44,970 nt of DNA from a virus. This document shows positions 22,623 to 42,684 of this stretch, in pieces. The notes below the pieces were generated by a model. That model had not been told where the DNA came from. It did no database searches and saw only the letters and a list, made by a program, of their open reading frames with translations. The DNA lies in IMG/VR virus record IMGVR_UViG_3300036859_000059, positions 1 through 44,970 of that record; one strand, written 5' to 3'. Each line of letters starts with the position of its first letter. The first letter of the stretch is position 1. A program made the translations under genes and the position numbers.

Positions 22623-23228
22623 ATGGCTACTCCCGCAAAAACCGCTCTGCCCTCTGCTGGCAGCATGCTGCTCAAAAACGTTCGCCTGACCTTTGCTCAG
22701 GGTCTGTTCGCCGCGACCACCATCCCCGGCCAGGACTCCGGCAAACCGAAGTTCAACTGCGGCGTGCTGCTTGGCCCTGACCACCCCCAGCTGCAGGAGG
22801 TCAAGGACAAAATGATGGCCGTCGCAAAAGAGAAGTGGAAGGACAAGGCGGGTGCCCAGTACAAGGCCCTGGAAAAGCAGGACAAGCTGGCACTGCACGA
22901 CGGCGACATCAAGCCGAACTACGACGGCTACCCCGGCAACTTTTTCCTGAGCCCCAGCGCCCAGGACAACGCCCAGCCATCGTTCTTCGACCAGGTGCGC
23001 AACGAGTTGTCTGTATCTCAGGCCAGCAAGCTGATCTACAGCGGCTGTTATGTCAACATCCGCATCGACCTGTGGGCGCAGGACAACCAGTACGGGCAGC
23101 GCGTCAATGCGGGCTTGCGCGGTGTGCAGTTCTACAAAGACGGTGACGCGTTCAGTGCTGGCCGTCCTGCCGACGGCAACGAGTTCGAGGAATGCGCTGA
23201 AGGCGGTGACGCTGACGACATGGCATAA
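22623..23228 (+). CDS. Single-stranded DNA-binding protein (DUF2815)
   Basis: The 201-residue protein belongs to the DUF2815 family of phage ssDNA-binding proteins. It has MLLKNVRLTFAQGLFAATTI near the N-terminus, a central KPNYDGYPGNFFLSPSA segment, and SGCYVNIRIDLWAQDNQYGQ leading to GLRGVQFYKDGDAFS. It ends in an acidic tail (EFEECAEGGDADDMA) such as SSB proteins use to contact partner enzymes. AAGAGG lies nine bases before the ATG. It would coat ssDNA during replication and recombination, alongside the DUF2800 nuclease and the polymerase. A terminator follows. Confidence 0.9.
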   Translation: MATPAKTALPSAGSMLLKNVRLTFAQGLFAATTIPGQDSGKPKFNCGVLLGPDHPQLQEVKDKMMAVAKEKWKDKAGAQYKALEKQDKLALHDGDIKPNYDGYPGNFFLSPSAQDNAQPSFFDQVRNELSVSQASKLIYSGCYVNIRIDLWAQDNQYGQRVNAGLRGVQFYKDGDAFSAGRPADGNEFEECAEGGDADDMA

Positions 23229-23235
23229 AGTTTTT

Positions 23236-23296
23236 GGGCGGCAGGGTCGGGGATTCCTGGCCGTTTTGCGAAAGCAAGCCGCCCTCTTTTATTTTT
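23236..23296 (+). terminator. Branched hairpin terminator after the SSB gene
   Basis: GGGCGGC (23236-23242) pairs with GCCGCCC (23278-23284), enclosing a small hairpin around GGTCGGGGATTCCTGGCC and a TTGC-GAAA-GCAA tetraloop hairpin (23266-23277). TCTTTTATTTTT follows. It should end the SSB transcript. The end of the structure, with its T run and following CAACC, is closely copied at 23429-23453. Confidence 0.8.
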
Positions 23297-23369
23297 CAAC
23301 CGAGAGATAGCTGATAGTTTTTCAACCGAGAGATAGCTAATAGTTTTTCAACCGAGAGATAGCTGATAG
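23292..23369 (+). repeat. Three tandem 26-bp repeats
   Basis: Units at 23292-23317, 23318-23343 and 23344-23369 are identical but for one base (G to A near the end of unit 2). Each has TTTTTCAACCGAGAG followed by ATAGCTGATAG. They fill the space between two hairpin terminators upstream of the Acb2-like gene. The unit start copies the T run and CAACC that follow the first terminator, so it may have grown by duplication of that leader. Confidence 0.95.
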
Positions 23370-23375
23370 TTTTGC

Positions 23376-23449
23376 AGGGCTGCCGAGGCAGTGGGTTGGG
23401 TTCGAGTCCCGTAAATATAAACCCACCAGCAGCCCTTCTTTTATTTTTT
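23376..23449 (+). terminator. Second large hairpin with T tract and T-arm-like core
   Basis: AGGGCTGC (23376-23383) pairs with GCAGCCCT (23429-23436); inside, GTGGGTT (23391-23397) pairs with AACCCAC (23420-23426), and GGG-TTCGAGT-CCC (23398-23410) forms a tRNA T-arm-like tip. TCTTTTATTTTTT follows. It reads as an intrinsic terminator or a stable leader RNA, 18 bases before the Acb2-like gene. It is too short and lacks D and anticodon arms, so it is not a working tRNA. Confidence 0.7.
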
Positions 23450-23466
23450 AACCAGGAGCAAATGAG

Positions 23467-23694
23467 ATGAGCGAACAAACCTTTGGCCAGAAAGCAGTTG
23501 GCCTTTTCTTCAACCCAAGTGGCGATGACGCCGTGGCGAATTGCAAACAGGAATTCGCCACGATCATTGACCGCATGCACGAACTGCACAACATCACAGC
23601 CAACTACGAAGTTATACGCATGTGCCAGATTGCCATCGACAACGCACAAACCGCGCAGATGTGGGCTGTCAAAGCCCTGACCTGGCGCGACTAA
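23467..23694 (+). CDS. Acb2/Tad1-like helical-hairpin protein (putative anti-CBASS/anti-Thoeris sponge)
   Basis: The 75-residue protein starts MSEQTFGQKAVGLFFNPSGD and folds, by pattern, into two helices (about 19-42 and 46-72), the second ending AIDNAQTAQMWAVKALTW. This layout and the opening match small phage proteins I associate with the Acb2/Tad1 hairpin family, whose members bind cyclic nucleotides from bacterial CBASS or Thoeris defence. The assignment is by remembered similarity; binding is not shown. AGGAG lies nine bases before the ATG. It stands alone between structured regions, unlike the packed genes around it, as an added accessory gene would. Confidence 0.6.
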   Translation: MSEQTFGQKAVGLFFNPSGDDAVANCKQEFATIIDRMHELHNITANYEVIRMCQIAIDNAQTAQMWAVKALTWRD

Positions 23695-23961
23695 AGAGAC
23701 ACAGCAGGACTGCCGGATTTCCAACTTAGCCTGGCCCACTAGGTAAAAAGCCTTTACATGTCGCCCCCTCTGCTGCCTGCGCCACTTTTGGGCAGAGGGA
23801 AGTGAAAATACCCGCCGGGGTGGAAACCATACAATGGGGAATGTTTAGGAAAAGCCAGGGCGTGAAGAACGTCCTGGCTGGGGTCAAGTTTCGTTTGTGC
23901 ACTGTTGCCAAATGAGTTAGGGCGGCTTCAGTGCACAAACGCAACTTCATCGGAGATTTTT
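23695..23961. other. Non-coding stretch with two hairpins and an inverted repeat
   Basis: These 267 bases hold no plausible gene. CCCTCTGC (23766-23773) pairs with GCAGAGGG (23792-23799). AGCCAGGGCG (23853-23862) pairs with CGTCCTGGCT (23870-23879) around a seven-base loop; read on the minus strand this stem is followed by TTTTCC, so it may stop antisense transcription. A 13-bp inverted repeat lies at 23892-23941. No clear sigma-70 promoter was found; TACAAT at 23829-23834 is a weak -10 candidate. Confidence 0.6.
23892..23941. promoter_or_regulatory. Perfect 13-bp inverted repeat before the HTH gene
   Basis: CGTTTGTGCACTG (23892-23904) and its exact complement CAGTGCACAAACG (23929-23941) are separated by 24 bases; each arm contains the palindrome GTGCAC. 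The pair ends 20 bases before the HTH gene start. Two arms 37 bases apart centre to centre suit two bound dimers on one DNA face or loop, so an autoregulatory operator is likely; an RNA hairpin is the alternative. Confidence 0.65.
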
Positions 23962-24225
23962 ATGACCAACATCGTACAGCGGCTGGTTGAGCGACGAAAG
24001 GAGCATATGGCGGGGGTTGGATACGGCGGCCCGAAGTGGTCTGCCAGCGAGCTTGCTCCAGAACTCGGCGTCTCGGCTAAAACGCTATCAGCATTGCTTT
24101 CGAAAGATCCTAGCGCCCCACCGGCCGTGCGCAATCCACCTTGCAACCCGCGCGATAGTCGCCATCCACCGCGCTGGGATCCGGTTGCCGTGCGCAAATG
24201 GTGGGCTGCCAGGAGCGCTAAGTGA
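23962..24225 (+). CDS. Small helix-turn-helix DNA-binding protein
   Basis: The 87-residue protein begins MTNIVQRLVERRKEHMAG and carries an HTH at about residues 28-50 (WSASELAPELGVSAKTLSAL), then a proline-rich loop and a basic RWDPVAVRKWWAARSAK end like a winged or excisionase-type protein. GGAG six bases before the ATG at 23962 decides the start; the longer frame would run through the inverted repeat. Its stop overlaps the polymerase start (GTGA), so it may regulate the polymerase operon through the 23892-23941 repeat. Confidence 0.75.
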   Translation: MTNIVQRLVERRKEHMAGVGYGGPKWSASELAPELGVSAKTLSALLSKDPSAPPAVRNPPCNPRDSRHPPRWDPVAVRKWWAARSAK

Positions 24226-26372
24226 CCACACTCTGGTTTGATACAGAAACTTTTTCTGAGTGCGACCTGAAGTCGCGCGGCACGCACCGCTACGCCTCTC
24301 ACCCAAGCACCGAAATAACCGTTGCGCAATGGGCCATCGACGACGGCGAGCCGGTGGTCGAGGATCTCTTCGGCACCAGGCGCCCGAGTCGCCAGCTGCT
24401 GGATCATCTGAACAATCCCGACATCAGCATCGAAGCCCATAACAGCCATTTCGACAGAACACTGGTTCGCTACGTCTGGAAGCTGGACATTCCCGTTAAA
24501 CGCTGGCGTGATACCATGGTGCGCTCGCTGGCCCATGGCCTGCCCGGCGCGCTGGGCAAGATCGGCGCCGTACTGGGTATTGACGAGGACCAGCAAAAAG
24601 ATAAGCGCGGGCAGCAGTTAATTTTGCTCTTTTGCAAGCCTTTGGCCAAGAACATGAAGCTGCGCCGCGCGACACCGCAGACGCATCCGGCAGAGTGGGC
24701 AGAGTTCCTGGAATACAGTCGTCAGGACATCGTTTCTATGCGTGCCATCTGTACCAAGCTGCCGAAGTGGAACTATGGCGTAGGCGCCGCGGTCCGCGAG
24801 CGCGAACTGGTGCTGTGGCACCTGGACCAAAAGATCAATGACCGCGGCGTGATGATGGATGTGACGCTGGCCCGGGCTGCTGTCGAGGCGTGCGAGATTG
24901 AAAAGGTCCGGCTCAAGCATGAGATGCGTGAGCTAACAAACGACCTGGTGGATGGCCCCAGCAAGCGCGCGGACATCCTCTATTTCATCCTGGCCGAGTA
25001 CGGCGTGGACCTGCCAGACCTCAAGGCCGACACCCTGCGCCGACGGATGGAGGATCCAGAGCTGCCGGACGGCGTGAAGCTGCTGCTGGCTATCCGGCTG
25101 GAGGGCACCAAGACCAGCACCGCCAAGTATAAGGCCCTGCTGAACGCCGTGAGCGATGACGACAGGCTACGCAACACCCTGCAGTTCGCCGGGGCGTCGC
25201 GCACAGAGCGCTGGGCTGGCCGCATTTTCCAGCCGCAGAATATGACGCGTCCAGATTTGCAGCTGATGGCCGACTACCACGGCGTCACGCTCAAAGAGCT
25301 GGACGACAGCGAAGAGCTGCAGGCCGATTACCGTGATACCGGAATTGCCGCGCTCAAAGAGGGCTGCGCCGAACTGTTCTTCAACAACGTGACCGGCCTG
25401 GCCTCGAACGTTGTGCGCAGCTGTATCGTCGCCCCGCCCGGCAAAAAGCTGGTCATCGCCGACTTGGCAAATATCGAGGGCCGCGGGCTGGCGTTCCTGG
25501 CCGGTGAAGAGTGGAAGCTGCAGGCGTTCCGCGAATATGACGATGGCACAGGTAAGGATCTCTACATCCTGGCATACGCCCGGGCGTTCAACATCGATCC
25601 CGAAGACGTCGAGAAATGGATGCGCCAAATCGGCAAGGTCATGGAGCTGGGGCTCGGCTACCAGGGTGGCGTTGCTGCCTTCCTAACGTTCGCCGCGGTC
25701 TACAAGATGGATCTGGCCGTGATGGCTGACGCGGTGCACCGCACGGCCAGCAAGCAGGCCCTGGCCGCCGCCTACGGCGTATGGGATTGGGCAGTTAAAA
25801 AGAAACGAACGCTGGGCCTGGAGAAAAGCGTTTATGTGGCATGCGAAGTGCTCAAGACGCTGTGGCGCGCGGCCCACCCAATGACCGCGCAGCTATGGGA
25901 TGACGCTCAACTGGCCGTGCAGAAGGCCATCCTGAATCCTGGCACCTCGTTCGAGATTGGTCAGTATATGAAGGCCCAGCGTGATGGTTCGTGGCTGCGG
26001 ATCCGGCTGCCTTCTGGCCGGTGCTTGTGCTACCTCAACCCCAAGATCGACGAGAGTGGCCAGATCACCTACATGGGTGTGAATCAATACACGAAGCAAT
26101 GGTGCAGGATCAAGACCTACGGTGGCAAGATCATTGAGAATGCCACCCAGGCCTGGGCCCGGGATGTACTGGCCTGGCATATGCCCGAGATCGACGCCTC
26201 TGGTTATGAGATCGTGCTGACAGTGCACGACGAGTTGATTACCGAGACACCGGACACGCCGGAATACTCGCACGAGAATCTGGCCTACATGATGACGGAT
26301 GCCATCCCATGGGCGCCGGGCGCACCTCTGGCTGCTGCTGGCTTTGAGACTAAACGCTACTACAAGGGGTGA
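24222..26372 (+). CDS. DNA polymerase, family A, with 3'-5' exonuclease
   Basis: The 716-residue protein is the replicative polymerase. The exonuclease has FDTET (Asp7, Glu9), AHNSHFD (Asp78) and YSRQDIVS (Asp169). The polymerase has motif A ADLANIEGRG (Asp414, Glu419), motif B around QIGKVMELGLGYQG, and motif C VHDELITE (Asp670, Glu671). There is no 5'-3' nuclease domain, as usual for phage family A enzymes. It starts with GTG (CAGGAG six bases upstream) overlapping the HTH stop. It copies phage DNA from primers made by the prim-pol protein. Confidence 0.95.
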   Translation: MTTLWFDTETFSECDLKSRGTHRYASHPSTEITVAQWAIDDGEPVVEDLFGTRRPSRQLLDHLNNPDISIEAHNSHFDRTLVRYVWKLDIPVKRWRDTMVRSLAHGLPGALGKIGAVLGIDEDQQKDKRGQQLILLFCKPLAKNMKLRRATPQTHPAEWAEFLEYSRQDIVSMRAICTKLPKWNYGVGAAVRERELVLWHLDQKINDRGVMMDVTLARAAVEACEIEKVRLKHEMRELTNDLVDGPSKRADILYFILAEYGVDLPDLKADTLRRRMEDPELPDGVKLLLAIRLEGTKTSTAKYKALLNAVSDDDRLRNTLQFAGASRTERWAGRIFQPQNMTRPDLQLMADYHGVTLKELDDSEELQADYRDTGIAALKEGCAELFFNNVTGLASNVVRSCIVAPPGKKLVIADLANIEGRGLAFLAGEEWKLQAFREYDDGTGKDLYILAYARAFNIDPEDVEKWMRQIGKVMELGLGYQGGVAAFLTFAAVYKMDLAVMADAVHRTASKQALAAAYGVWDWAVKKKRTLGLEKSVYVACEVLKTLWRAAHPMTAQLWDDAQLAVQKAILNPGTSFEIGQYMKAQRDGSWLRIRLPSGRCLCYLNPKIDESGQITYMGVNQYTKQWCRIKTYGGKIIENATQAWARDVLAWHMPEIDASGYEIVLTVHDELITETPDTPEYSHENLAYMMTDAIPWAPGAPLAAAGFETKRYYKG

Positions 26373-29265: not shown

Positions 29266-29641
29266 TCAAAATACACCGTTTAAATTTAGACCCTTTGACG
29301 GCCAGCCGTGGCTTGACGACGCAATGTCTGGCAGCATGTACCGCGAGCGCAATCCTCTGACGAGATGGAGTTATAACCCGTGGACTGGTGCCAGACGCGA
29401 GCAGCTTGATACTATTGGTGATCCGCTGGGCGAACTGATCGTGCCGCCAGGCGTGGCGGTTTTTAGCCACAATGTGCGCCAAGTTAAGTTCGGCCCACCA
29501 ACAAAAGCGCAGACCGCCAATCCGGCGCCCGTGTTCTATGAAGTAACCATCAAGCACGGCGAAGAAAAAAGTACGCTGAGCGGCACCGACAAAGAAACGC
29601 TCGGCCGACTATGCGTCGCAATTCTTAGGGGCATGAAATGA
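29258..29641 (+). CDS. Unknown protein
   Basis: The 127-residue protein is not recognised. It begins MHSQNTPFKFRPFDGQPWLD, has an aromatic N-terminal half (RWSYNPWTGARREQ) and a beta-rich C-terminal half (PVFYEVTIKHGEEKSTLSGT) followed by a helix. It overlaps the helicase end by eight bases and the next start by four (ATGA), so it belongs to the same transcript. No cysteine, membrane segment or signal peptide. Confidence 0.72.
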   Translation: MHSQNTPFKFRPFDGQPWLDDAMSGSMYRERNPLTRWSYNPWTGARREQLDTIGDPLGELIVPPGVAVFSHNVRQVKFGPPTKAQTANPAPVFYEVTIKHGEEKSTLSGTDKETLGRLCVAILRGMK

Positions 29642-30195
29642 CCGAATTTGTTTGGGGGGTGATTGCCAGGCTGGTGTCGAGCCGTCTGGGTTTCATGCTG
29701 ATTGCCAAGCACGCTCTGCGTAGGGCAAATAAAGGTGTGCGGATGCTGGATATTGTGTCAGGTGGCGACACGTACATGCGCCGTTACTGGGTGTTCAACC
29801 CCTACCCGGCGAGCAATCAGAAATTCTGGTGGGGCCGATGGTTGCCGTCAATCAGACTGCATCACATTCTGCTGCCCGACTCAGACCGCCATCTGCACGA
29901 TCATCCTTGGGCTTTCAGAACGATCGTGCTGGATGGCTGGTATCTCGAAGAGAGACAGCACGGGTACCCCATGCTGTTTAAGGGATTCACATCAACCATG
30001 AAACCCGGCGAGTTCCATCGAATCGCCAGCGTCAGCCAAGGTGGCGTATGGACTTTGTTCTTTACCTGGAAATATCAGGAACCATGGGGTTTTCAAGTCG
30101 ATGGCAAAAAGGTAGTATCAAGGGAATACCTGGCCGATAAGGAATTTCACAATGCCGTTTACGCCAAAGCAAAATCGACTATTCAGGGCCGCTGA
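29638..30195 (+). CDS. Cupin-like protein
   Basis: The 185-residue protein has RLHHILLPDSDRHLHDHPWA followed by FRTIVLDGWYLEE and MKPGEFHRIA: a cupin-type metal site with His-x-His-x-x...Glu...His spacing. The fold is shared by sugar and amino-acid modifying enzymes and dioxygenases; such phage proteins are uncharacterised. An N-terminal hydrophobic stretch (VWGVIARLVSSRLGFMLIA) may be a helix near a membrane. It lies at the end of the replication operon and overlaps a small gene at its 3' end. Confidence 0.65.
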   Translation: MTEFVWGVIARLVSSRLGFMLIAKHALRRANKGVRMLDIVSGGDTYMRRYWVFNPYPASNQKFWWGRWLPSIRLHHILLPDSDRHLHDHPWAFRTIVLDGWYLEERQHGYPMLFKGFTSTMKPGEFHRIASVSQGGVWTLFFTWKYQEPWGFQVDGKKVVSREYLADKEFHNAVYAKAKSTIQGR

Positions 30196-33978: not shown

Positions 33979-36900
33979 TCAGCGCGGTGGTCCGAACAGC
34001 AGGGCCAGCGGGTTGGCCGTCTCGCCCTCCTTCAGCGCCAGGAACCCCTCAACTGTGCGGTTGACCTGGCCTGCCGGGTAATGGAACAGCATGCCGCCCA
34101 CGTTATCCAGCGCTTTGAGCATGCCCTTGTCGATCTCGCCCTGCTCTGTCTGCTTGGCCAGCTTGGCCAGCTCGCTGAAGAAACGTGTACCGGCGGGACC
34201 CTGGTAGCCGCTGAATCCGCTGACAGCGGCGCCTGCTTCGCGTAAACCAACCATTGCGCCAAGCAGATAGCTCAATTGATCCCGAATCAGCTTCTCGGCC
34301 AGCTTGTCCTCGTCATCGCCCTTGCCGGTCAATGCTTCCTTCATCAGCGTCGTGAGTACTGAAGGCACAGAATACAGCAGCAGCATATCGACAGCAAAGC
34401 GCCCGGCCTGCAGCGGATTGCTGAACTTCGTCATGTTGTAGCGCTCGGCAGTCAGGTTGTATGTCGTGCTGAAGTAGCTATAGAAACTGGTGAACAACTT
34501 CTGCAGCGGGCCGCCGCGCTGCACGCGGGCCAGATCCCCGGTCATGCCGGATCCTTGCGCGTCGCGCACAGCCTGGTCGGCCTGAGCGATAGCTTCCGCC
34601 TCGAGCTCCTTCGGGTCCGTGATGCCGCTGGTGGCATATGCCTTTTCGTACTGGCCCAGCCAGGTGGGCATGTCGGCCACGATCTGCAGTTTCTGAATCA
34701 GATAGAAGTACGTCTCTTCCACCGCCGTCAGCTTTGCGCCCTGCACCTTGTTGCGGATCTCGTTGATCTCGCGGTTGATGGTCTGGCCGCGCAGCTTCAT
34801 GAACTCTGATTTTTCGTAGACATCTTTGACGCCACCCTCCATACGCGTGGCGTCGCCAATCCACCGGGCCAGGCCCTTGCCCACCCAGCGGGGGCCAATA
34901 CGCACCATGGATTGGGTGAGGCCCATGGGCTGCATCAGCGAAGTCATGGTGTTCCAGCCCAGACCCACGATCGTGGCGCCTTGGCGCAGGTGGTTGATGC
35001 CGCGTTCAAATTCAGATTGCGCAGGCACATCCCCGGCGGCGATGTCCTCGATTGCTTTCTTGAACTCGCGCAGCACTTCAGGGCCGACAGTCTCGCGGAT
35101 GGCCGACTCTATCGGGCTCGAGCGCACCAGGCGGTTGGCGTCAATCAGCCACTCATGCCAGGCCAAGTCATGGATGACCTGATCGACGTGCTGGAACACA
35201 ACGCCAATGTCTTTGCGCACCGCGCGGTTGACCGTCTCGGCCCGCGCTTTGGTATGGCCGCGCCTGGTGGTGGCCCGCGTGTACTGTCCCTGTAGCATCT
35301 GCTTCGTGAGCTCAGCTGCAGTATCTGCCTCCGCTCGGCTGCTGCGGTCTGGATCATATTTGATGGGGTAATAGCCGCCTGCAAGTTGGACCATCTCGCC
35401 GCCTTTAGCCGTTACCAGCAAAGGCTCTGCAGCTACCTTTTCAGGAGCAAGCCCAGAGATCCGTTCCTCTTTGGCCTTGACATCCGGCCAGTAGGTGTCG
35501 ATATGATCCCACACTTTTTGCACGAACTTCAGCTGCTCTGGCGTGAGCGTGGACAGCACGGCGTTGAGCTGGTGCTCGCTCCACTTGTCGCCGTCCATGA
35601 TGCGCTGCTTGTTGGCCGAGTTGCCGGAGTTCAGCGCCACGGCCAGCCGCGTTTCGAGCGACAGCGACTTGTTGATGGCCGGGATCTCCACCATCTCGCT
35701 TAGCTTGTTGTCCTTCAGGAACGGCGTGAATATCTCGGCCAGTTTCTCCGTGGCCTTCGCGCGCATCGTGGCTTCGTGATCTCCTGATTCGTTCATCGTG
35801 CGCGTGAAGACTTGCCAGAATGGGCCGCCATCTTTGAAGCCGTCTAGCTGCCGCACCAGGCTGCTCAGCTTGCGGTGCGAGCTGAAGAACCCGCGCGCAA
35901 AATCTGCCGCGCGGTCCTTTGCCGTGGGTGCGTTGACACGCACTTCGCGGGACTGTGTGGCGTTGTCCCTGATGGACTGCTCGATGCCTGCTATGATGGC
36001 TGCGAACTCGCGCTTGTCTTTGGCCTTCAGCAGTTTGTTTTTGAGGCGGCCCAAGTGCTCGATGTTTTTCACCGAATCGACGACGCCACGGAATTCTTCG
36101 ACGGTCAGCTCTTTGTAGGATACGCTGCGCGCTTCCTCGAGCAAGCTCTCTGGGACCACCGGGGTAAGGCCCATGTCTTCTTGATCCTTGACCCAAGCCG
36201 CCAGCGACTTGCGTTTCTCGATGGCGCGCAATGTCGTGCTGGTGCGCAAGTCGAAGCGCTCGAGTAACGTGTCGATCTGCTCCATGTAGTCGGCGGGCAG
36301 CGATTTGCGTCCGGCTTCCTTGTCAAACTTGCGCAGGTACTCAAGCGCTTTTTTGACTTCCGCTTGGACGTCCATCGTGTACGCGGCGGCGTAGTGGTTC
36401 AGCAACTGGTCCCGCTGGGCGGAGATGGCCGCCTGCGTGTCGCTGGCCGCCGTGGCTTCCGCCAAGCGCTTGGCCGCGCGGGCGCCAGCACCGGTAAACA
36501 CGGACGGTTTCAGGTCCATAATCTTGCGCCGCGAGATGATGTTCTGCGCGAACAGCTTGGCCGCCTTGAGCAAGACTTTTGCCGGTGTCTGCGCCTGGCT
36601 GATTGCCTTCAGGCCGGTGGCCATGAACCTGGCCCGGGCTTCATTCACGATAGCCTCTTCGGCTGCGCGCTTCATACCGGCTTCGGTCACGGTGTCGCCG
36701 TAAGTTTCCAGCAAGCGGGTGTCGGTCATGCCGTCGATTGTCTGATCTTCGGGGAAAGCGTTGACGATGGCGCGCACCATGGCGTCGCCGCTAGCGAAAC
36801 CGAAGAGCTCGGCCACCATGTTCGGATGCAGGCCCAGCTCGTCAGCTGTAATCAGATTGGTGGCCAGGTACCGCCAGGGGGCTGCAGGTCCATCCCCAAA

Positions 36901-39900
36901 CATCTCGCGCAAAATTTTGGTAGAAAGTTTGCCGCCCTCAGACTTTGTACCGTCGGGCAGCTCGCCGGTTTTCATCCAGCGCTGCACCGCGTAGACGGGC
37001 TGCTGACGCACTTCAGCCTTGACCTCGTTGCGCATTGCCTTACGCTGCTCATCAACTTCACCTTGCAGGCGTTTCAACTCTTTGCTGCGGGCGTTGATCG
37101 TCCAGCGCAAATCACGCAGAGTGCGGGACTGCAGAGCATCCATGGCTGTGGCCGTGGCGACTTCATCCTGCTTTTGATACTTCGTCCATTCTTCTGGCGT
37201 CATGCCTGCCTGCTCGGCAGATTGATATACCAGGGTGTAGCCCGCCAGGCGCTGCTGCTCGTTGATCTGATCCTGCGTGGCCAACAGTCGATCGAAGACC
37301 TCGCGGACTTCATTGGATAGCCCGCCGCCCGACTGCTGGAAGATCTCTTTGATCGACTTGTAAACGGTCATCATCCAGCTGCGGAAGCGGCTGAAGACAG
37401 GTTGCAGCTCGGCGCTCGGGGCCTTGCCCTCAAACAAATACTGCTCGAACGACTCGGCAAACTTTTCGTGGAAGGGACGCTTTTGGTCCAGCGTGCGCGT
37501 GTTCCACTCATACATGTCCGTAACGCCGAACCACTTCAGTACTGTCTCCATATCGGCAGTAACATCCGCCGGGGCGTCCGGCTGGCTGGCGATATCGGCC
37601 ATGACCTCCAGGAAAAAATGGCCAGACTCGTGCAGGAACGACGAGAGATCCGCCGTCTTCAGCAAATTGATGGTCAGGGATTTTGGGTTGAATGTTGCGC
37701 GGGGACCGCTAGGAGCCGTTTCAGCGCCGCGTGGCTGGGTAAGTACCATGCCCGGCAGATTGACGCCTTGGGCAGCGGCTGCGGCCTGTGCTGCAGGCAG
37801 ATCCGCCTCATTGACTTGGAAGGTACCGCCTTTGACGGTAGCACTGGGCGCCACGGCCCGAATCTGCTCGATATTGAGCGCGGACAACTCGGCTGACATC
37901 AGCCCGCGTTTGTAGACGGCAGGAGCGGGCGGCGCCGGAGGGGTGTAGCCGGGCACGGGGATCTCGGCCACAGCAATGCCGCGCGACTGCGGGCCTAGCA
38001 CGACAGCGGCGCCCTGGCTATTGAAAGCGTTGCGGATGAAGTACCCGCCGAAGCCTGCGTCCAGGATCCTGGCTTCAGTGGCGTTGAGGTCAGAACTTTT
38101 CCACAGACCAAGCGGATCTGCCTTGGCATCGTAGAGCGCAGGCAGCGGTACCTCATGCGCGAAGCCGCCGACACCGGACTCAGGGCGAACGCCATTGCCC
38201 TCGTCCAGATAGACGTAAATCCGTTCCTTAAGCCGTTGGTCGGTCGTCTCGCGCAGGCGCTCGGCTTCCAGACCTTTGAGCCCTGAGCCGTAGTACCGTC
38301 CGTCAAGCGCTTTGCGGGGCTGCTTGGAAAAGTGTATGCCGATAGTGGGCGCAGGGCTGGCCTGGGTCAGCACGCCGCCGGTATCGGTTGCGCCTTCCTC
38401 GACAGCCCACGACGGCAGTAGCCCGATTTTCTGCGGGGCGTATTGCGTCTCGACAGGGCCTGCTGTTTTGTTGAACTCCGTGAAGGGGCCGAAGTTGACC
38501 CAGCTGTTTTGGCCGCGGGTTTCCGTGGTCATGGCCTGGCGCGCGAGCGGGCTGTACATCGCCCAATGCGAGCGCCACGCATTTTCCTCACCATCCGCGC
38601 GAAAGCCGACGCCCTCTTTGATGTGGCCAAAGTAGTCGTGCACGATACGGAAAACGTCGTTCGCCTGCACCGAGCGCCCGCTGATCTCTTCGCCTGGCAC
38701 AACGGCCAGCAGCGGATTGCCACTGATGTCCACGCCAAGCGATTCGGTACCGCCGAACCCGGCGCTGGTGGGATAAACCCAAAGATGGTTATTTTCCACC
38801 ACGTCCAGGATGGCGTTGCGCGGATTGCCGTAGGGGTCATCCCCAGTGATGAACTCCACTACCAGGCCTGTTTCCTTGATAGCTTGCCACTGCGCAATTG
38901 TCTCGCGGATCATGGCATCATAGGACGCCTTGACTGCGGGATCTGCAGGATCATGTGGCATCGCCTCGAAGGCGTCAGCAATCAGCTTGGCGCGTTTGGT
39001 GTCAACCTTGACGTAAGTGCTGGGCGGGTTATACGGCAGCCCCGCGCGCTCGGCATACCGGCGGGCCGCCTCGCGGGCGGGCGCGTGGGGGCCGAACGTG
39101 ACGTCCTGACCGTTTACTTTGACTGTGGCAGGGAGATCGACAAGGGGCTGGTCAGTGCCAAGATCCGGGCCTGGTGCGTTTGCCAATAGCCCAGTGCTTC
39201 CTCGTACTCGTCCTTGCTGGGAAAGTTCTCCAGCAAAGGTTTCTGCGCCAGTAGATTGTTCATCGCGTAGCTCCGCTATGTCTTGTTCGAATTGCTGCTC
39301 GGCAGCGGCTGCTCTGGCGTCGCCCCGGGAGGCTGCGAGGCGGTCGAGTCGTCGGGCTGCTTGGAGCTCGAGTTGCCGCTGAGTTTCTGCAGCAAACGGA
39401 GCTGCTTGGCCCGCAGCTCCGGGCTGCTGGCCTGGTTGGCCTGCACCACCTGCGACAAGATCTGCGAGCTGCTGTCCATAACCTGCCTCATTGAGAATGT
39501 TTGCGTACACGTCATTGTACAGGAGGGTGCTGAAGTCCGGCGTGGCGTTGATCAGCTCGTCCGTGAGCGCGCCTTCCTCCACGATCTGCATGGCAGAGCG
39601 CGGTTCGTCACCGGCGTTGGCCGTCTCGTACAGGGCCTTGGCCCACGACCAGACGGTTTCCTGCACCTCGGCCGGGGTCCACTCTTCGCCTGTCAGCTTG
39701 GTGAGCTGCTTGGCCGCCTCGCGCACGCGGGCGTTGAGCGCCAGGTAGCCGACACCTTTGCCTGGCTCGTCGCCAGCAACGTTCAAGCCACCTTTAAAAA
39801 TGGTCTGGTTGACCAGCGTGTAGTTGGCCATCCAGGCGTCGTTTGTGACCTCCTCGGTCACGCCCACCAGGTTGCGGAAAAACGAGTTTACCTTCGGGCC

Positions 39901-42684
39901 CGACAGCGTCAGCTTGGTGAAGTCGTCACTGGCCAGCGCGCGCACAGTGTTATTGATCCAGGCATCCAGCACGCTGGCCCGTCCTTTGCCGCCCTGCACG
40001 CTTTTGCCCATCACATCGATGATGGCTTCACGCTCAGACGGGCGGCCCGCTGCGATCCAGTTTTTCCACGTGTTGAGTGCGTTCAGCAGATTCGTCTCGA
40101 CTGATACCTGCGGACTCATGGCCGCCAGCATTGCGGCAAAGCGCGGCGCGTCGGCCCCAAACACCGCTGACAGAGCTTGCGCCGAACCGGCATACCAACC
40201 TCGCTTCGCCCGTCCAGCAAAAGCCACGGCCGCCATCTCTTTGGCTGCAGGAAAAGCCTTCATCTGCTGGATGATTTTCTCTGCTACCTTGTCGGTGACT
40301 TTGCTCTGCTCCGCTGGGGTCAGGTTCTTCAGCAGCTTGCTCACGGCCGGTGTGGCGGTCTTGACGCGGGACTGCATCAGCTCGCCCTCGCCTATCGCAC
40401 GGTCAAACGCATCGCGAAAAGCCGCGCCCTCTTCCGTTTGAAACTGGCTGCGCTGCACGTCGTAGCCCTGTGCAATTGCCGCGTTGTAGAGCGCCGTCGC
40501 CACGCCCTTGCGGCGTTGTTCTGGGGTCACCAGTATCTCGCGCACTTCTGCAGTCTTGCCATCGGCGCCCACAGCCAGGTCAAGGTGGCCAATTTCCTGA
40601 CCATTGACCTCTGCGCGGATGCTCACGTCGTTCGCCCCCTGCGGCTGCACCAGGTTCAAGATCTCCTGATTCGCCTGGCTGCGGCGCACCGGCTCGGTGG
40701 TAATGCGTGTCGTCAATCCTTCTGGCTGGCTCAGCACAGACTCCCCGGCCACAGGACTTTCAGCAATGATTCGCAGCGGATATTTGGCGTACATCTCTTC
40801 GGGCGTAATGCCGAGGCGGCCAGACGTGGCGACATAAAAATCGCGGATGAAAGTCGCGTAGGCGGTATTCACGTCCGCACGGAAGCGATTGCCAATCGCG
40901 AGCTGATTCAGCACCGTCTCGCGTACACGGTCTGCGCTCTCCATCGTGGCCTGCACATCAGTGGCTTCGGCGAGCACCTTCTGTGCTTCCTGCTGCATCA
41001 GCACCTGGGACTGGGCTACGGCTTCCTCTGCCTCAAAATGGCTCAGGGCGTCGGGCTCTGTACGCATGTGTTGCAACAGCTCTTGCTCGAGCCCCGTGCC
41101 GGTGAGGCGCGCGGCGAGCTCGCCGATGGGGATGGAGACAGTGCCGCCCACCTGCAGCGCTTCGGCCATCTGGGGCACAACGCTCGGCAGGATCTCCGCA
41201 AACTTCTCATCGGTCACGCCCGCCTGCTGCAACGTCTCTTGCAATTTGGTGGCGTCGATGTAGACATGCGACGTTCCCTCTTCGTCGCCCATTTGCTGCA
41301 CGAATTGCTGGAAGGTGTCGGGGTTGCGCGTGCGCAGTTTTGACTTGTTGGCCAGGTCAATAAGTTCTTGCAGCTTCAGGTGACCTTCATGCGCATCCTG
41401 AGTTTTCGTAGCTGCTGCCAGCGCGCGCCCGGCGCTCACACGGGCCACGTCAATCACCGCACCAGGTACTTCGCCCAGCATCTCGGACAGCACTGCGGAA
41501 GCGCTGACATCCTGGCCGCTGGCCAGAGAGCCAGCAACCTCGCCCCCACCACCGCCAGCCATTTGAATAGCAGTCTGCGCTGCCAAGTTGCCGAGGTGAG
41601 TCTTGCTGAGAGTCTTGCCCGCAAAGCCTGCAGTGGCCGCGTCAAATACGCCAATAACCCCGGCTTTAATAAGCGCCTTTCGGCTTTGTTCTTTGAACTC
41701 TGGGGACTTGAGGGCTTCAGCTACTGCATCGGCATTCGTAACGTCAACGCCCATTTTCTGAAAAATGTCCGGCAGATTGTTGACGTATTCGGTTGCCGCC
41801 GAGGTTGCCCCGGTGGCGGCCATCATGCCTGGTACGCCGCCCAGCGCGAAACCCGCCGAGATGTAAGGCAACGTCGGCAGCATTGAGCCCAGCGAGCCAG
41901 ACACGATCTGCGTAGCAATGCCGACAGGCGATTTTGTGAGCGCCGACAGGGCTGGGCCGAGCTCGTCTTGAGATTGAAATTCCTTCAGCGCGGGATCCAT
42001 CGGCAGCTTGTTTACTGCTTTCTGGCGCACAGCAGCTTCCGCCAGATTCGACGCAATCTGGTCCTGCATGTGCAGGCGCAGGTTGACGCCTGCCTCCTGG
42101 CGCAAAGCCTCTTGTTTCTCGGGCGTGAGCCCAGAGTACATCTGCTGTTGCCGCCGGTAAATGGCCATGCGCTCTTCGCGTTCCGCTGTTACTGGCGTAG
42201 CCGCCTCTTCGTCCATGGCGCCCAGCATCTTGATGGCTTGCACAGCGCGCGTGATGTCAAAACCACGCAGCGTATTGCTGAGGTTGCGCCTGAATTCGTT
42301 GATGTTTTTCTCGATAAACCCCAGGTTGTCCAGGTCGTCGTGCGACTGGTTCATGAAGTTCGGCACATCGCGCACCGCGCGCAGCAACTTCGGCGATGAT
42401 TGCAGTTTTTTGTCGTAGGTATTAACGGCGTCCTGCAGCTGCACGTCCTGCAGGTTGCGCGCCACGGAGTCAACCGGGATCTCCATTTTCTTGCTGAGCT
42501 GTACCGCCTTCGCCGCCTGGTCCGGATTGGTACGCGCGCCCTCGGCAATGCGTTGCTGAAGGCGTGATTCCTCTTCGTCGTTGACCGATTGCAGCGTGGC
42601 CAGGTAGGGGTTTTTAGCAGGAGGCGCGATGGTTTCGGCCTTCTGGTCTTCACCGCTCAGCAAGTCGAGGTAGGGGTTTGTCAC
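33979..42684 (-). CDS. Giant internal virion protein (gp16-like, polyvalent, 2,901 residues)
   Basis: This single frame of 2,901 residues holds the place of T7 gp16 (1,318 residues), the last internal core protein. Visible parts: a glycine/alanine-rich hydrophobic stretch (about 250-300); a GNAT-like domain (about 675-750; REILVTPEQRRKGVATALYN); a module around 1340-1420 (FRIVHDYFGHIKEGVGF); another near 1448-1530; a zincin-like HESGH motif at 1685-1689; long helical regions; and a C-terminal part with hydrophobic helices (RFAVDMLLLYSVPSVL). Such large polyvalent proteins may enter the host with the DNA. No lytic transglycosylase motif was recognised. GTG start, overlapping the gp15-like stop. 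Confidence 0.8.
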   Translation of the reverse strand: MTNPYLDLLSGEDQKAETIAPPAKNPYLATLQSVNDEEESRLQQRIAEGARTNPDQAAKAVQLSKKMEIPVDSVARNLQDVQLQDAVNTYDKKLQSSPKLLRAVRDVPNFMNQSHDDLDNLGFIEKNINEFRRNLSNTLRGFDITRAVQAIKMLGAMDEEAATPVTAEREERMAIYRRQQQMYSGLTPEKQEALRQEAGVNLRLHMQDQIASNLAEAAVRQKAVNKLPMDPALKEFQSQDELGPALSALTKSPVGIATQIVSGSLGSMLPTLPYISAGFALGGVPGMMAATGATSAATEYVNNLPDIFQKMGVDVTNADAVAEALKSPEFKEQSRKALIKAGVIGVFDAATAGFAGKTLSKTHLGNLAAQTAIQMAGGGGGEVAGSLASGQDVSASAVLSEMLGEVPGAVIDVARVSAGRALAAATKTQDAHEGHLKLQELIDLANKSKLRTRNPDTFQQFVQQMGDEEGTSHVYIDATKLQETLQQAGVTDEKFAEILPSVVPQMAEALQVGGTVSIPIGELAARLTGTGLEQELLQHMRTEPDALSHFEAEEAVAQSQVLMQQEAQKVLAEATDVQATMESADRVRETVLNQLAIGNRFRADVNTAYATFIRDFYVATSGRLGITPEEMYAKYPLRIIAESPVAGESVLSQPEGLTTRITTEPVRRSQANQEILNLVQPQGANDVSIRAEVNGQEIGHLDLAVGADGKTAEVREILVTPEQRRKGVATALYNAAIAQGYDVQRSQFQTEEGAAFRDAFDRAIGEGELMQSRVKTATPAVSKLLKNLTPAEQSKVTDKVAEKIIQQMKAFPAAKEMAAVAFAGRAKRGWYAGSAQALSAVFGADAPRFAAMLAAMSPQVSVETNLLNALNTWKNWIAAGRPSEREAIIDVMGKSVQGGKGRASVLDAWINNTVRALASDDFTKLTLSGPKVNSFFRNLVGVTEEVTNDAWMANYTLVNQTIFKGGLNVAGDEPGKGVGYLALNARVREAAKQLTKLTGEEWTPAEVQETVWSWAKALYETANAGDEPRSAMQIVEEGALTDELINATPDFSTLLYNDVYANILNEAGYGQQLADLVAGGAGQPGQQPGAAGQAAPFAAETQRQLELQAARRLDRLAASRGDARAAAAEQQFEQDIAELRDEQSTGAETFAGELSQQGRVRGSTGLLANAPGPDLGTDQPLVDLPATVKVNGQDVTFGPHAPAREAARRYAERAGLPYNPPSTYVKVDTKRAKLIADAFEAMPHDPADPAVKASYDAMIRETIAQWQAIKETGLVVEFITGDDPYGNPRNAILDVVENNHLWVYPTSAGFGGTESLGVDISGNPLLAVVPGEEISGRSVQANDVFRIVHDYFGHIKEGVGFRADGEENAWRSHWAMYSPLARQAMTTETRGQNSWVNFGPFTEFNKTAGPVETQYAPQKIGLLPSWAVEEGATDTGGVLTQASPAPTIGIHFSKQPRKALDGRYYGSGLKGLEAERLRETTDQRLKERIYVYLDEGNGVRPESGVGGFAHEVPLPALYDAKADPLGLWKSSDLNATEARILDAGFGGYFIRNAFNSQGAAVVLGPQSRGIAVAEIPVPGYTPPAPPAPAVYKRGLMSAELSALNIEQIRAVAPSATVKGGTFQVNEADLPAAQAAAAAQGVNLPGMVLTQPRGAETAPSGPRATFNPKSLTINLLKTADLSSFLHESGHFFLEVMADIASQPDAPADVTADMETVLKWFGVTDMYEWNTRTLDQKRPFHEKFAESFEQYLFEGKAPSAELQPVFSRFRSWMMTVYKSIKEIFQQSGGGLSNEVREVFDRLLATQDQINEQQRLAGYTLVYQSAEQAGMTPEEWTKYQKQDEVATATAMDALQSRTLRDLRWTINARSKELKRLQGEVDEQRKAMRNEVKAEVRQQPVYAVQRWMKTGELPDGTKSEGGKLSTKILREMFGDGPAAPWRYLATNLITADELGLHPNMVAELFGFASGDAMVRAIVNAFPEDQTIDGMTDTRLLETYGDTVTEAGMKRAAEEAIVNEARARFMATGLKAISQAQTPAKVLLKAAKLFAQNIISRRKIMDLKPSVFTGAGARAAKRLAEATAASDTQAAISAQRDQLLNHYAAAYTMDVQAEVKKALEYLRKFDKEAGRKSLPADYMEQIDTLLERFDLRTSTTLRAIEKRKSLAAWVKDQEDMGLTPVVPESLLEEARSVSYKELTVEEFRGVVDSVKNIEHLGRLKNKLLKAKDKREFAAIIAGIEQSIRDNATQSREVRVNAPTAKDRAADFARGFFSSHRKLSSLVRQLDGFKDGGPFWQVFTRTMNESGDHEATMRAKATEKLAEIFTPFLKDNKLSEMVEIPAINKSLSLETRLAVALNSGNSANKQRIMDGDKWSEHQLNAVLSTLTPEQLKFVQKVWDHIDTYWPDVKAKEERISGLAPEKVAAEPLLVTAKGGEMVQLAGGYYPIKYDPDRSSRAEADTAAELTKQMLQGQYTRATTRRGHTKARAETVNRAVRKDIGVVFQHVDQVIHDLAWHEWLIDANRLVRSSPIESAIRETVGPEVLREFKKAIEDIAAGDVPAQSEFERGINHLRQGATIVGLGWNTMTSLMQPMGLTQSMVRIGPRWVGKGLARWIGDATRMEGGVKDVYEKSEFMKLRGQTINREINEIRNKVQGAKLTAVEETYFYLIQKLQIVADMPTWLGQYEKAYATSGITDPKELEAEAIAQADQAVRDAQGSGMTGDLARVQRGGPLQKLFTSFYSYFSTTYNLTAERYNMTKFSNPLQAGRFAVDMLLLYSVPSVLTTLMKEALTGKGDDEDKLAEKLIRDQLSYLLGAMVGLREAGAAVSGFSGYQGPAGTRFFSELAKLAKQTEQGEIDKGMLKALDNVGGMLFHYPAGQVNRTVEGFLALKEGETANPLALLFGPPR

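Follow-up and report, generated by a model that had tools for sequence, protein, structure and literature searches.

A 75-residue protein of a BPP-1-like podovirus belongs to the Acb2/Tad1 hairpin family and is a candidate cyclic-nucleotide sponge

Results

A solitary small gene lies between the SSB and DNA polymerase genes

The window, i.e. the whole stretch of 44,970 nt that was analysed (IMG/VR virus record IMGVR_UViG_3300036859_000059), carries an acb2-like gene on the plus strand at positions 23467..23694. It encodes a protein of 75 aa, which starts with MSEQTFGQKAVGLFFNPSGD, ends with AQTAQMWAVKALTWRD and contains an Acb2/Tad1 hairpin domain in residues 20-72. The initial annotation had given the same start and also the same end, except that the final two residues RD were missing. 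The plus-strand motif AGGAG at 23454..23458, located 8 nt 5' of the ATG, reads as a good ribosome-binding site. One scan of contigs in IMG/VR yielded 315 confirmed relatives with a best identity of 75%, and codon differences in comparison with relatives are biased to the third position (14/14/44 by codon position for relative L001). Therefore, the open reading frame represents a real gene, far above chance.

As observed initially, the gene is isolated amid overlapping genes: it is flanked by gaps of 238 nt and 267 nt, while the genes around it are close or overlapping (22592/22623; 24222 overlaps 24225). The upstream neighbour (22623..23228, plus strand) encodes an Enc34/Gp2.5-like ssDNA-binding protein (SSB; PF10991, 3.2e-29; phrog_112). 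The 238-nt leader gap that follows (23229-23466) indeed contains the repeats and hairpins noted before, namely three 26-bp repeats as well as two stable hairpins that carry T tails, all listed here for the plus strand. The first hairpin (23236-23284; fold -30.4 kcal/mol, z -3.2) is succeeded by TCTTTTATTTTT, the entire element spanning 23236..23297, and is likely the terminator of the upstream SSB gene. Directly after its T tail start the three tandem repeats TTTTTCAACCGAGAGATAGCTGATAG (23292..23376), whose copies are 97-100% identical at a spacing of 26. The second hairpin (23376-23436; fold -26.2 kcal/mol, z -2.2) with its TTCTTTTATTTTTT tail (23376..23450) is positioned directly 5' of the ribosome-binding site. 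Both hairpins are followed by the element CTTTTATTTTTYAACC, in one case at 23286, which is absent elsewhere in the window, and a leader copy in degenerate form lies 5' of the ribosome-binding site of the acb2-like gene. This arrangement gives the impression of a duplicated terminator-plus-leader unit. The second hairpin (23376-23436) also includes a T-arm-like sequence GGGTTCGAGTCCC and ends with ...AACCCACCA within the stem, reminiscent of a tRNA remnant; ARAGORN detected no tRNA, and a search of the window against Rfam returned no match.

Downstream, the non-coding region comprises exactly 267 nt (23695-23961), as previously stated, and the next ATG is at 23962. It starts a small HTH-like gene of 87 aa (23962..24225, plus strand), for which matches to HTH domains are weak and sub-threshold. 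Just 5' of this gene, an inverted repeat (23886-23947) with 24-nt arms and the perfect core CGTTTGTGCACTG has a fold z of -6.2 and lacks a T tail; it is possibly an operator or an RNA element. The interval is closed by a gene for a family A DNA polymerase (24222..26372, plus strand; PF00476).

The interval between SSB and polymerase varies among BPP-1-like phages

The portal protein and the polymerase encoded in the window are 55.7% and 51% identical, respectively, to those of Bordetella phage BPP-1, and the gene order exonuclease, SSB, polymerase, endonuclease, helicase is the same as in BPP-1. Judged by portal and polymerase sequences, the phage is a BPP-1/BcepC6B-like podovirus. Between SSB and polymerase, BPP-1 itself has bbp41 alone, BcepC6B has five genes, one of them for a DNA methyltransferase, Acinetobacter phage 4316 has three small genes, and E. 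coli phage 606R2 has one gene on the reverse strand. The hairpin protein is not encoded in any of these four regions. Since the gene content of the interval varies among relatives, the data support that the gene was separately acquired, and they support the proposal of an accessory island as well.

We also considered whether the HTH-like gene at 23962..24225 corresponds to bbp41 of BPP-1, and rejected this upon reading of the translations, which are unalike (HTH-like versus a C..C..H..C-containing protein). In E. coli phage vB_EcoM-606R2, the gene directly behind that of the DNA polymerase is annotated as encoding a protein with a TIR-like domain (L235, 6117-6878). Two further genes of the window were recorded. 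A 185-aa protein encoded beside replication genes (29638-30195) matches phrog_4786, 'cysteine dioxygenase', at 9.9e-33, and the C-terminal 1230 residues of a 2901-aa protein encoded on the minus strand (33979-42684) match phrog_9880, a family of unknown function, with 1425 bits.

The protein is a member of PF24729 and homologous to Acb2 and Vs.4

The link to the Acb2/Tad1 hairpin family had initially been proposed without a database search. In a profile search, the protein scored 28.2 bits (2.2e-6; residues 20-72 aligned to profile positions 10-57) against PF24729 (Acb2_Tad1_hairpin), i.e. just 1.2 bits above the curated Pfam cut-off of 27 bits. The positive controls Acb2 and Vs.4 of phage T4 reached 66.1 and 71.4 bits, respectively. 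All 12 family members tested, that is the window protein and 11 of 11 relatives, matched the profile; the relatives outscored the window protein, the best one reaching 4.6e-13. Moreover, phrog_717 is common to the window protein, Acb2 and Vs.4.

As a margin of about 1 bit is thin, homology was tested independently of Pfam. When the window and Acb2 families were compared by HH, the probability was 96 and the score 47.7 for an alignment covering one helix, while the best of 200 column shuffles scored 19.1. The same comparison with the Vs.4 family alone was weak (probability 19). An HMM of the window family detected Acb2 proteins with up to 26.2 bits (maximum 7.4 in 1316 shuffled sequences) and Vs.4 proteins with up to 21.1 bits (maximum 8.4 in 636 shuffled sequences). 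Additionally, L230 and L231, which represent a third subfamily of PF24729 found in bacterial genomes, beat the shuffled sequences with all three HMMs and thereby link the window branch with Acb2 and Vs.4. Similarity to the latter two is concentrated in the last helix. Taken together, the family link is borne out by a score above the cut-off, 12 of 12 members, the shared phrog_717 and comparisons that beat shuffled nulls, and the sequence data support that the protein is a PF24729 member homologous to Acb2 and Vs.4. Relatives have already been named by Pfam/UniProt, i.e. the family is known and it is the branch that is unstudied.

Both L230 and L231 are encoded in a single bacterial genome, which belongs to the same class as the Polaromonas locus, and they exhibit RP[FL]T..E near the start and VMWAV[KR][GA]IG at the end.

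When the PDB was searched by sequence, the window protein alone retrieved nothing, and the bridging protein of the third subfamily retrieved nothing relevant. In a PDB profile search with 12 sequences, the sole relevant match was T4 Vs.4, which topped the list with a non-significant E-value of 0.098; a Tad1 chain was not found. There was no NCBIfam family for the window protein and no match in PADLOC, and phage records searched at the DNA level yielded no match.

The predicted fold is a helical hairpin

AlphaFold2, provided with 12 sequences, predicted with a pLDDT of 93.1 that residues 6-11 form a short helix and that residues 21-43 and 47-72 form two long helices in antiparallel orientation. 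The monomer model is thus the antiparallel hairpin that had been anticipated; the earlier description as a two-helix protein fits the two long helices and omits the short third one. In this respect the model resembles the Acb2 protomer of Pseudomonas phage PaP2/PaMx33 (PDB 8h2j, 8h2x), a phage accessory gene product of the same PF24729 hairpin, which likewise consists of a short N-terminal helix and two long helices.

When predicted viral proteins (BFVD) were searched with Foldseek, two named Acb2/Tad1 hairpin proteins ranked first, the best match being protein A0A411AWH0 of Providencia phage vB_PstP_PS3 (7.8e-4). Among the matches listed for the PDB, Acb2 and Vs.4 were absent. This negative result has some weight, because the model of a 74-aa Acb2 homolog, built in the same manner, retrieves both 8h2j (6.8e-5) and Vs.4 (0.11). 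Therefore, the models suggest that the geometry of the branch probably differs from that of Acb2, most likely at the N-terminus.

Regarding the second name of the family, the protein shares with Tad1 (Thoeris anti-defence 1) the C-terminal helical hairpin by which the Pfam family is defined, and Tad1 is also a hexameric sponge. Tad1 possesses an extra N-terminal beta-sheet domain, which together with loops forms its gcADPR pockets (PMC12043709). Because the all-helical 75-aa model lacks this domain, the protein is not a Tad1 in the strict sense. Of the designation Acb2/Tad1, the shared hairpin remains and Tad1 proper does not.

Interface positions are conserved, while the ligand-stacking tyrosine is missing

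Residues were compared using 82 family sequences for conservation. The last helix aligns gap-free with an offset of 10 from Vs.4 (PDB 7uq2) and of 16 from Acb2, and its core MWA.[KR]A is shared with Vs.4. Mutation of A66, A73 and A77 in Vs.4 abolishes both the hexamer and cGAMP binding (PMC10097602). These residues correspond to A56, A63 and A67 of the window protein, which are alanine in 99-100% of the sequences. Of the basic ligand-contact residues of Vs.4, R79 matches K69 (99% conserved) in the gap-free alignment, and K23 (or the nearby K26) matches K27 (100% conserved) by the Pfam register; helix 1 is unreliably aligned by HH. For Acb2, the pairs are R67/R51, Q77/Q61, T78/T62, M81/M65 and R85/K69 (Acb2/window). 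R51 is 96% conserved and aligns with a residue of Acb2 that we take to be a contact for cyclic trinucleotides. Along with K27, residues M65, W66 and V68 are invariant in the 82 sequences.

However, the window protein and its whole branch lack the IKGY motif (IKGY[RK] in Acb2) with the ligand-stacking tyrosine, which is Y11 in Acb2 and Y8 in Vs.4. In its place, the N-terminus of the branch reads T[FY]GxKAVGLxFNPS, with F15 conserved at 98%. F15 or W73 could substitute for the tyrosine. Further differences from Acb2 are a shorter inter-helix loop and a C-terminal TW where Acb2 has AQP, and the two models are not paired by Foldseek. In comparison with Vs.4, there is no clear H11, F82 aligns with T72 to which W73 is adjacent, and S74 is replaced by Q64. 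A0A411AWH0 and the approximately 315 IMG/VR relatives belong to the same branch and in most cases carry TFGQKAVGL...FNPS...QTAQMWAVKA.TW, whereas the window copy deviates at four otherwise conserved sites (R41H, S54Q, T58D, E59N). Positions 54 and 58 are one and two helical turns away from R51. Of the pocket residues, whose comparison with Acb2 had been suggested at the outset, K69 and R51 are possible counterparts, and the tyrosine motif has none. Given the missing motif and the departures of the window copy, the class of ligand is not readable by analogy with Acb2 and Vs.4.

Relatives occupy many positions in phage genomes

Relatives, mostly deposited as hypothetical proteins, were found in phages, in prophage-like loci of Pseudomonadota, Bacteroidota and Saccharibacteria, and in a few plasmids, and reside at many genomic positions including the lysis-terminase junction, the head module and the replication module. 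In Pasteurella phage Pmp11 and in Aaphi23 they adjoin genes for lysis and terminase, and in the Schitoviridae phage EcP1 the relative is located in the early region. An Orbaceae genome has its copy between the head protease and major capsid genes, while in Dyadobacter, Fibrivirga and Polaromonas genomes terminase genes are adjacent or nearby; some relatives are found amid replication genes (SNF2 helicase, exonuclease, SSB). A self-contained gene that shifts position is what a counter-defence function would show, which is no proof of it. A CBASS synthase (SMODS) scored above the cut-off in 2 of the 14 genomes with relatives, a number that is too small and lacks a matched background. In Providencia phage PSTCR8lys, the relative (L085, 2995-3218) matches in two pieces and the annotated ORF has 49 aa; this copy looks broken, as is acb2 in PaMx41.

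Discussion

The best explanation for these data, and a probable one, is that the gene encodes an Acb2-type cyclic-nucleotide sponge. It builds on a real gene with a family link, a predicted monomer fold, conserved hexamer-interface positions and a variable locus. The protein would fold into a short N-terminal helix and a long antiparallel helical hairpin, and small residues in its last helix would let copies pack as a hexamer, whose inter-subunit pockets may bind cyclic oligonucleotides. During infection, the protein would then hold the signal of host CBASS or of another cyclic-nucleotide defence, whereby the killing effector would stay off and the phage could complete its cycle. A BPP-1-like podovirus would have gained the gene as an accessory between its SSB and DNA polymerase genes. 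Several observations speak against a sponge: the IKGY motif is lost throughout the branch, Foldseek did not list solved Acb2 or Vs.4, the Pfam margin is narrow and the window copy departs from its branch at four sites, the HH comparison with the Vs.4 family alone is weak, and just 2 of 14 genomes with relatives had a CBASS synthase above the cut-off.

The most serious competitor, which we nevertheless regard as unlikely, is a paralog that retains the hairpin and oligomer of Acb2 and uses them for another ligand or another purpose, such as a protein partner or an accessory factor in replication or packaging, without sponge activity towards cyclic nucleotides. Loss of the ligand-stacking tyrosine motif across the branch would agree with such a role, as would the presence of some relatives in groups of replication genes (SNF2 helicase, exonuclease, SSB) and a conservation so extreme, with no variation at M65, W66, V68 and K27 across the 82 sequences, that it goes beyond what is usual for arms-race genes. 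Against this, the hexamer positions and apparently the basic pocket positions are retained, the genomic positions in phages are scattered rather than bound to one module, and Acb2 and Vs.4, the members whose function is known, are sponges by which phages capture bacterial alarm signals. That the protein is a sponge mainly for signals of Thoeris or related NAD-derived signals, i.e. with a Tad1-like ligand rather than CBASS nucleotides, seems improbable to us: the window protein is devoid of the N-terminal beta-sheet domain that forms the pocket in Tad1 (PMC12043709; AlphaFold2 model) and the PDB profile search returned no Tad1 chain, even though the Tad1 hairpin falls within the Pfam family, gcADPR is a ligand of Tad1 alongside cyclic nucleotides (PMC12043709) and a BPP-1-like relative has a TIR-like gene directly after the polymerase.

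That a two-helix protein matched by chance, and that the gene is unrelated to Acb2, is hardly credible by now. The protein is short and helical, the HH alignment extends over one helix only, and Foldseek gave no match to solved Acb2, all of which would agree with this reading. Yet the HH score of 47.7 compares with at most 19.1 in 200 shuffles, the HMM score of 26.2 bits with at most 7.4 in 1316 shuffled sequences, and 12 of 12 members pass the Pfam cut-off.

If the protein is a sponge of the Acb2 type, one may tentatively go further, at considerably lower confidence. The near-invariant branch T[FY]GxKAVGLxFNPS...QTAQMWAVKA.TW might constitute a distinct sponge family, in which the cGAMP-stacking tyrosine would be replaced and whose signal would be one not bound by Acb2 or Vs.4; the substitutions S54Q, T58D and E59N lie near R51 in the last helix of the window copy, whose specificity might have shifted again. 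As the branch is common and strongly conserved without the tyrosine, it offers a good and cheap test of whether PF24729 members beyond Acb2 and Vs.4 are sponges, and for which signal. The SSB-polymerase interval of BPP-1-like phages, in turn, is a place to seek counter-defence genes.
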